Positions 1-4,099 of a stretch of DNA of 5,400 nucleotides are shown in pieces. Under the pieces are notes generated by a model. It was not told where the DNA came from, did no database searches, and worked only from the letters and a program-made list of their open reading frames with translations. Origin of the DNA: Candidatus Methanophagales archaeon. GTDB lineage: Archaea; Halobacteriota; Syntropharchaeia; Alkanophagales; Methanospirareceae. Numbering within the stretch: the first letter of the stretch is position 1; every line of letters begins with the position of its first letter. The stretch is from positions 1 to 5,400 of the forward strand of contig JAUXHM010000082.1 in the NCBI GenBank assembly GCA_030621535.1, written 5' to 3'. The position numbers were made by a program, and so were the translations under genes.

Positions 1-26
1 ATAAACAACCCCGATCTTTTTTATTG

Positions 27-34
27 TATATAAA
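27..34. promoter_or_regulatory. TATA-like element, orientation ambiguous
   Basis: The plus strand reads TATATAAA and the minus strand reads TTTATATA, which is close to the archaeal TATA (box A) consensus. Read on the minus strand it would start a transcript near position 4, serving a gene left of the window. Read on the plus strand it would start transcription around position 57, just before the hairpin-rich element at 73-218. No clear purine-rich BRE is seen on either side, so the direction is undecided. In AT-rich DNA such a match can also arise by chance. Confidence 0.35.
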
Positions 35-109
35 GTATAACTTCTACCCATAAATAAATTTAATTTAGGACGCAGATTTACACACAACTTTTTTACCTTC
101 GGTAAAAAC

Positions 110-148
110 CTTGACTAACAACCTTTCTTAAAAAGAAAGCTTGACTAA
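110..148. repeat. Direct repeat CTTGACTAA, two copies 30 bp apart
   Basis: The identical 9-mer CTTGACTAA occurs at 110-118 and 140-148. Each copy follows directly after a small hairpin: the first lies one base past the 90-108 stem-loop, and the second starts on the base after the 123-139 stem-loop. The unit is therefore hairpin plus 9-mer, given twice. It lies inside the larger structured element, and its role is unknown. Confidence 0.6.
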
Positions 149-179
149 AGAAACAGGTCTTTTTTTCTTTTAGCACAGG

Positions 180-203
180 TTTTCTTTTTGTGAAAAAGAA
201 AAA
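180..203 (-). terminator. Possible T-rich terminator after tRNA-Gln
   Basis: On the minus strand, downstream of the tRNA-Gln gene, the sequence reads TTTTTCTTTTT (203 to 193), followed by the other arm of a perfect 10-bp hairpin. Archaeal transcription usually ends at T-rich tracts without needing a hairpin, so this could end the minus-strand transcript. The plus strand has its own T-tract (T7-C-T4 at 160-171), so termination in both directions is possible. The call rests on base composition only. Confidence 0.3.
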
Positions 204-262
204 GTGTTGTGTAATCTGGTGGTTATAATTTTCGGGATGACTATGGTCAACAGCAACAGTAA

Positions 263-3192: not shown

Positions 3193-3200
3193 TTTATAAA
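3193..3200 (-). promoter_or_regulatory. TATA box for the eL18 operon, overlapping the ftr stop
   Basis: TTTATAAA on the minus strand matches the archaeal box A. It is centred about 62 bp upstream of the eL18 ATG, which would put the transcription start near 3170 with a leader of roughly 35 nt. The bases just upstream (GCAACC) are only a moderate BRE. The box uses the last codon and the TAA stop of ftr (CCT-TTA-TAA). It is inferred from sequence only. Confidence 0.5.
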
Positions 3201-4099
3201 GGTTGCAGGATAAAATCATTCAAATAAATTTTATACCGTCCTAATTTCCCTCCATAATTCCCCGCTGATATTTTCACCAATCCTTTGACATCCCTTACGC
3301 TATCCATCGCGGCTTTCATCGCTTCTTTTACCGTGTCGAGCGAAACGCCATTTATGACGATTTCGGGAATGCACTGCACGCCTTCCGGAACCTTCGAGCC
3401 ACTTATCTTGTGCTTTAACGTGGGGCAAAAGGAATGATTGGTCGTGGGGCCTATCTCAGGATATTTCGTTTCTGGTTTAGAACCCGCAGAGCAGATATCA
3501 AAAGGAGTTATCGCACCTTCTATTTTGTTTATCGCATTGATTGCCTTTTCACCCGTTTCTAATGCTGCTTCCAAACTTTCGCAGAAGAACCATAAGTTCC
3601 CGCCCATTACTCCCTTCTTATAACCTAAATGACGTTCCACGAGAAACTCCCCCATCATTATCGGCACCACGACCACTTCCCTTCCAAACCTTTGCTCTAT
3701 TGTCTCGTATCCATCGCCGCAGTGCCCTATTCTGTCTATAGTATCAATAAAATTCCCACCGGGGATTTCAATCGCATTGAAGACCGAGGTCGTGGGCACG
3801 ACCAGTATCCCCTGCCTTATTCGTTTTGATATTTCATACTCCAGTTTTTCGACAGCATCTTCGTCTTTACTTTTAGCGTAATTCACCCATATCTGTGCTA
3901 TCGCGCCTTTTCTGCCGTCTGGCGTTTCGCGCTCGCTTAGCCACTTCTCTATCCCTCCTTCTGCCTCGCCAAAAACGGTGCAAGGCAATGCAGTGGCACT
4001 GTATGCCGCTCGCTCCAATCGCTTTTCATCTTTCGCGGTTATGCATATCCTTGCGAATAAACCCTCAAATGCCTCGCAGTATGTGTTCTCGATTTCCAT
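3194..4099 (-). CDS. ftr: Formylmethanofuran:tetrahydromethanopterin formyltransferase
   Basis: Ftr moves the formyl group between methanofuran and tetrahydromethanopterin: the second step of CO2 reduction to methane, run backwards in methane or alkane oxidation. It is a soluble cytoplasmic enzyme, known as a homo-oligomer. The 301-residue length matches the family. Visible blocks are IENTYCEAF (3-11), the [11 protein letters not shown] stretch (44-54), [11 protein letters not shown] (55-65), VPTTSVFNA (101-109), [11 protein letters not shown] (145-155), GGNLWFF (166-172), [18 protein letters not shown] (197-214), FCPTLK (224-229), EIVINGV (246-252), and the C-terminal [16 protein letters not shown] (276-291). 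It lies 35 bp behind the aldolase with no TATA box in the gap, so both are probably cotranscribed. The ATG lacks a Shine-Dalgarno but fits the family N-terminus. It is the main metabolic marker of the window. Confidence 0.97.

Follow-up and report, generated by a model that had tools for sequence, protein, structure and literature searches.

The window analysed here, a 5,400-nt stretch of a Candidatus Methanophagales genome, is contig C138 of a 170-contig genome (1.09 Mb, 61% complete). Near its left end, at 73-218, a cluster of nested hairpins adjoins a tRNA gene. Further downstream, the gene at 3194-4099 encodes a protein whose four best relatives are 93-96% identical and come from MAGs assigned to Methanophagales (n = 2), the ANME-1 cluster (n = 1), and Methanomicrobiales (n = 1), which points to an ANME-1 archaeon; the region upstream of this gene was compared across loci, found not to be syntenic, and dropped. 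A second dispersed repeat (CTCTGTGGTCTCTGCGCTCTCGGCGGTGATAAATC...) occupies 392-442, with more than 50 matches among those listed, in six genomes of the genus. In G001, about 4.2 kb (C173, 1862-6076) separate the tRNA-Gln from the downstream gene region, and this split falls exactly at the start of the second repeat (window 391/392).

The preliminary description of the hairpin cluster had claimed a compact element closed by a 13-bp stem, and the pairings it listed can be read from the sequence: 73-88 (CAGATTTACACACAAC) pairs with 206-218 (GTTGTGTAATCTG) over 13 bp with a 3-nt bulge, a perfect 10-bp hairpin with a GTG loop is located at 180-189/193-202, and the hairpins of modules C and B (Table 1) as well as one inner pairing are present. 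Folding of 73-218 as single-stranded DNA reproduced the nested structure and beat 200 of 200 dinucleotide-shuffled controls on both strands (plus strand, −26.6 kcal/mol, z = −3.9; minus strand, −30.4 kcal/mol, z = −5.3; 0/200 shuffles as good in either case). The RNA fold of 60-235 reached z = −2.6 on the plus strand (2/200 shuffles as good), with a different structure as its best fold, and z = −3.7 on the minus strand (0/200). Thus, the structure lies where it had been placed, but its limits had been drawn too narrowly, as the repeated DNA is longer and covers about 15-246.

Composition and distribution of the repeat

The window copy is a chimera in which the arms of two repeat families enclose three palindromic modules (Table 1). 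Parts of 15-87 match other loci in blastn searches (L009, L012, L025, L093, L122, L127, L138, L143, and L150), and a repeat of the left-arm kind lies beside the same tRNA in G001. The TATA-like box at 27-34, previously taken for a promoter, sits inside this repeated arm and therefore provides no evidence of a locus-specific promoter. Module C has further copies in the same genome (e.g. L093, L099, L103, L107, L112, and L125), and module A is the best conserved part among the copies. Folded alone as DNA, modules C and B yielded z = −3.25 and z = −2.39, respectively.

Table 1. Parts of the window copy and the two autonomous elements that share the right-arm tip.
Feature	Sequence	Positions	Strand	Length	Description
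Left arm	Window	15-86	+		Terminus of a second repeat family, TTGTATATAAAGTATAACTTC...GATTTACAC; includes the TATA-like box and the outer stem's 5' half
Module C	Window	85-119	+		Palindromic; hairpin 90-97/101-108, then tail CCTTGACTAA
Module B	Window	119-153	+		Palindromic; hairpin 123-129/133-139, then tail variant CTTGACTAAAGAAA (common form GCTTTACCAAAGAAA)
Module A	Window	162-207	-		Palindromic, inverted relative to B and C; minus strand ACACTTTTTCTTTTT-CAC-AAAAAGAAAACCTGTGCTAAAAG
Right arm	Window	208-246	-		End of an IS630-type MITE; tip 234-245, reverse complement CATAGTCATCCC versus TATAGTCATTCC
Element of the preliminary description	Window	73-218	.		Stem 73-88/206-218 joins two foreign arms around modules C, B, and A
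Autonomous copy	L298	838-2048		1211 bp	391-aa ORF, DDE_3 transposase
Autonomous copy	L301	1367-2511		1145 bp	363-aa ORF, DDE_3 transposase

Comparison of 38 copies from the same genome resolved the three modules as exchangeable units. Their general forms are AAACCTTTCTTT-loop-AAAGAAAGCTTTACCAAAGAAA for module B, CAACTTTTTTACC-TTC-GGTAAAAACCTTGACTAAA for module C, and, read in reverse, ACACTTTTTCTTTTT-loop-AAAAAGAAAACCTGTGCTAAAAG for module A. Every module consists of a hairpin and a tail, and the conserved tails (CCTGTGCTAAA, GCTTTACCAAA, and CCTTGACTAAA) can be summarised as SCTKKRCYAAA. In composites, B and C face an inverted A; module number and order differ among copies, with A alone, B-A, C-A, and B-C-A all found, and the internal modules also occur without the arms of the window copy, singly and within genes. 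In contig C90, the ends of the B-C-A unit are fixed, and at least about 44 matches in the genus, counted by eye, run from end to end. When B copies were chosen by their tail alone, an abutting hairpin was present in 49 of 67, compared to 6.0% of shuffles preserving base content only (403/6700), and 31 of these copies scored 6.9 vs. 2.35 on average. An arm-swap test for covariation with loose anchors showed no excess for B (0.625 vs. 0.608), no clear excess for C (0.592 vs. 0.540), and more for A (0.619 vs. 0.441); since the loose anchors were contaminated by chance tails, this test was set aside in favour of the tail-only sample.

In the window's own genome, a query of 176 bp gave 55 matches, with scoring limited to 40 of 141 first-look candidates, and it matched 23 of 39 sampled genomes, 22 of the 24 from the same family vs. 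one of 15 from outside. An exact search for the 15-mer of the common B tail was positive in 32 of 36 genomes of the family and in one of 23 others, while its reversed counterpart, used as a control, occurred in none of the 59; the exact 23-base core of module A had no match in viral contigs. The element at 73-218 is thus a dispersed DNA repeat, which is evidence against an RNA gene.

Copies of module A in L097, L107, L110, L116, and L123 of the same genome end directly 5' of an ATG (GTGTATG, GTGTAATG, GTGTGATG), and in L098 a copy follows closely behind a stop codon. Another short double-hairpin insert, TAAACCCTTTCAGGG...GGGCAGAGCCCAC, was observed in L198 (approximately 12770-12820), where G000 and G003 carry it and G001 and G005 do not.

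Orthologous sites and copies in protein genes

Presence and absence of the repeats could be followed at several orthologous sites. At the window's own site, the right arm is common to G002 and G004, where the contig of G004 ends in it, G005 lacks it, and in G001 the repeat beside the tRNA is a different one. At about 4.8 kb of contig C114, the junction is empty in G001, whereas it contains little beyond two TIR tips in G005, an F-type MITE lacking both A and B in G004, and a B-A copy in G000. Some repeat is present at the C90 site in all six genomes, with the G000 copy facing other repeats in the five relatives, so that this site offers no clean empty state. At 9.45 kb of contig C75, an A' module is missing in G001 and lies within another repeat in G002, which makes gain and loss indistinguishable; in G005, the loop of A is occupied by a further module pair, suggesting that hairpin loops may be landing places for other modules. 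The repeats also offer a possible reason why some contigs of these MAGs end within intergenic repeats, as those of G004 and G002 do at the window's own site.

Modules are also found in frame within protein-coding genes, where NLSLKKKALPKK is an example of the encoded segment (inserts in MetRS, CoaE, UbiD, and Dph2). The dephospho-CoA kinase CoaE of G018 contains module B in frame, which the CoaE of 24 other genomes lacks; relative to G041, a genome of the same genus without the module, the net difference is 51 nt, with 4 nt replaced. In MetRS, the insert separates the residues that align to 272 and 274 of 1rqg, and for MetRS as well as DapF, in-frame copies contrast with solved structures that have none. 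In UbiD, the full insert (N/T)LS(L/F)...K(A/G)L(P/S)KK occurs in eight of the 75 aligned homologs (P0001-P0003, P0011, P0012, P0019, P0022, and P0074), shorter related inserts are found in P0031 and P0050, and the remaining 65 have none (all counts for the best 75 of 120 homologs). An AlphaFold model of UbiD with the insert was too poor to use (mean pLDDT 48).

The diphthamide synthase Dph2 has one loop that carries modules in both orientations depending on the genus: A, A' with an inverted B, an inverted B alone, or two B-like units, while the loop is short in G018, G041, and G008. The window's own genome encodes a Dph2 of 331 aa (L377) with a segment 96% identical to module A of the window over 45 nt; this segment is in frame, reads DTFSFYKRKPVLKE, and corresponds to a gap in the alignment to the solved Dph2 structure 6bxm. 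In a HAD-type gene, the module replaces native sequence of similar length, indicating that clean insertion is not the sole event. HAD-type loci (L031, L012, L275, and others) from several genera additionally have one loop in which B modules vary in length and are nested, and the frame is open in every aligned row.

Among the B copies with an exact tail in G018 (n = 26) and G007 (n = 12), seven of 38 are spanned by an open frame with at least 40 aa on each side, five of them in the recognised families CoaE, DapF, MetRS, Dph2, and PfkB; 175 of 340 random stretches of the same loci passed this open-frame test. Genes are therefore under-represented among the B copies, in line with the expected effect of selection, yet they are by no means devoid of copies.

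The IS630-type arm and candidate mobilising enzymes

F-type MITEs carry inverted tips TATAGTCATTCC, and complete ones measure 77 to 246 bp; two-tipped copies exist with modules (L128 and L139) and without (L211). Two of 30 loci with a DDE_3 transposase, L298 and L301 (Table 1), both from relatives, are framed by right-arm tips, and on the basis of this domain and the traits of the family we take both to be IS630-type elements. The tip at window positions 234-245 matches those of L298 and L301, which identifies the right arm, and only this arm, as the end of an IS630 MITE; the window copy does not have matching inverted tips at both ends, its left arm belonging to another repeat family. Members of the IS630 family duplicate a TA target; at C114 and at the tRNA site, the junctions would fit such a duplication but have diverged. 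In L298 (2020-2048) and L301 (1367-1395), the transposase stop codon lies within the element's own terminal repeat, and the last residues, CNLLAE, are thus encoded by that repeat.

Y1/HUH transposases recognise REPs as single-stranded hairpins with a tail, and a Y1/RAYT enzyme was considered as the partner of the palindromic modules. This candidate was rejected: Y1 transposase hits occurred in only 14 of 24 genomes and were absent from G007, G012, and G013, which have B copies, and none of the 30 Y1 loci had modules close by on both sides, the single-motif matches on either side of the Y1 locus L182 being 0.65 and 0.88 kb away. An autonomous element with B and A ends was likewise rejected, as the seven widely spaced pairs among the loci examined framed no transposase ORF when inspected by eye. 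No cognate transposase for the modules was found among the Y1 loci and the B/A-framed pairs examined, nor was a target duplication for the modules seen at the sites examined. One open Y1 transposase frame of 223 aa (L184, contig C191 of G011) itself holds module B in frame (RNLSLEKKALPKK).

Explanations and comparison with known systems

Taken together, the feature is genuine, though in all likelihood not an RNA gene; it appears to be the nested, chimeric remnant of mobile elements, built from palindromic repeats whose system extends into protein genes. We are fairly confident that 73-218 represents a dispersed ANME-1 DNA repeat, with modules between two repeat arms, that likely spreads as non-autonomous mobile DNA and does not encode an RNA. 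Evidence for this comes from the copy number, the modular build, the autonomous IS630-type parents of the right arm, the presence and absence at orthologous sites, and the in-frame copies in core genes. The right arm would have moved as an IS630 MITE with the transposase supplied in trans, while a separate process may have mobilised the palindromic modules, probably in the form of single-stranded hairpins that an enzyme, also acting in trans, would recognise by hairpin and tail. Hairpin loops and older repeats may be favoured landing places, which would lead to the observed nesting. That the modules can be read through in several frames is probably why in-frame copies are tolerated, and the extra peptide would form a surface loop.

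A rather unlikely alternative, though the strongest of those weighed, is that the modules are kept between genes as bidirectional transcription terminators or stabilisers of mRNA ends. T-rich tracts are present on both strands, some copies abut a start or stop codon, and 19 of 20 A copies lie between genes (20 contigs of the same genome, simple ORF caller). However, the positions of module A show no bias (convergent, 5; tandem, 10; divergent, 4; within a called ORF, 1; vs. 22, 67, and 30 of 119 gaps >60 bp), and modules also lie in frame within genes.

Far less probable is transcription of 73-218 as a structured non-coding RNA or as a cis-regulatory leader. The preliminary description had favoured such a plus-strand RNA, and the compact nested structure, the adjacent tRNA gene, and an RNA fold that also beats shuffled controls are in line with it, but the idea is not supported by what is seen, a high-copy dispersed repeat of variable module number and order whose placement relative to genes is unbiased, whose supposed promoter is part of a repeat arm, and whose modules recur inside protein genes. 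The remark that the element resembles no recognised RNA family was borne out by an Rfam search, in which only two tRNAs reached the gathering threshold and the best other hit, snR49, stayed far from it (21.3 bits vs. 45, E = 0.73). Such hairpin clusters are easily misread as non-coding RNAs or riboswitches and call for caution.

Slightly less credible still is an ordinary single IS-derived MITE, with the 13-bp stem as its TIR and internal hairpins that arose by chance. The right arm is indeed the end of an IS630-type MITE, and the palindromic mobile element with TIRs that had been offered as an alternative comes close to the data in its general nature. Yet the arms of the stem stem from two different repeat families, so that its 13 bp do not represent the TIR of a single element, and modules also occur on their own and within genes, free of these arms. 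Chance pairing in A+T-rich DNA, the other alternative originally named, is excluded for practical purposes despite the very A+T-rich arms, both by the DNA-fold shuffles and by the repeats throughout the genome and the family.

Beyond the dispersed mobile repeat itself, we lean towards the broader view that ANME-1 archaea possess their own, independently evolved protein-coding palindromic elements, an archaeal counterpart of the Rickettsia palindromic elements (RPEs) that jumps into genes across the family, swaps and nests at its sites, and gives rise to new in-frame peptides in essential enzymes (MetRS, CoaE, and Dph2). Together with intragenic REPs, RPEs come closest among the known systems; they are short palindromic repeats of several families, which the consulted portions of PMC10969869 and PMC3733652 place both in non-coding regions and, in frame, in genes for unrelated proteins. 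The modules likewise occur both between genes and in frame within them, a likeness of description, but their hosts are archaea, and they measure about 35-46 bp, share a tail, and are often nested and inside MITEs. REPs, according to the consulted portion of PMC3733652, combine a hairpin with a conserved tag and occur singly or in inverted pairs, sometimes inside genes. The modules resemble REPs and REPINs in their hairpin and tail and in their single or inverted-pair occurrence, with the tails pointing inward as in the TT arrangement of that source, but differ in the tail itself (SCTKKRCYAAA, not the GTAG or CGTC of intragenic bacterial REPs) and in that no RAYT-type framing was found.

The right-arm tip is common to the window copy and autonomous DDE_3 elements, as for an IS630 MITE; however, the window copy carries such an arm at one end only, and the palindromic core is absent from the IS630 elements examined. 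Archaeal MITEs are represented by SM1-SM4 of Sulfolobus, which are non-autonomous and present in tens of copies, and for which PMC10969869, in the portion consulted, describes no in-frame insertion into coding sequence and no nested modules of hairpins. Among the titles and abstract openings listed, mostly from outside subscription journals, none mentions such ANME-1 elements or archaeal in-frame palindromic elements, and in the literature found in this way, in-frame palindromic insertions are peculiar to Rickettsia and some other bacteria. An archaeal case in core enzymes, with many species available for comparison before and after insertion, makes it directly testable, by proteomics and enzymology, whether new protein segments can be seeded by selfish DNA. 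Thus, judged from these sources, the kind of element is known from bacteria, whereas the archaeal system appears to be new, as do its modular build and the core genes that host it.
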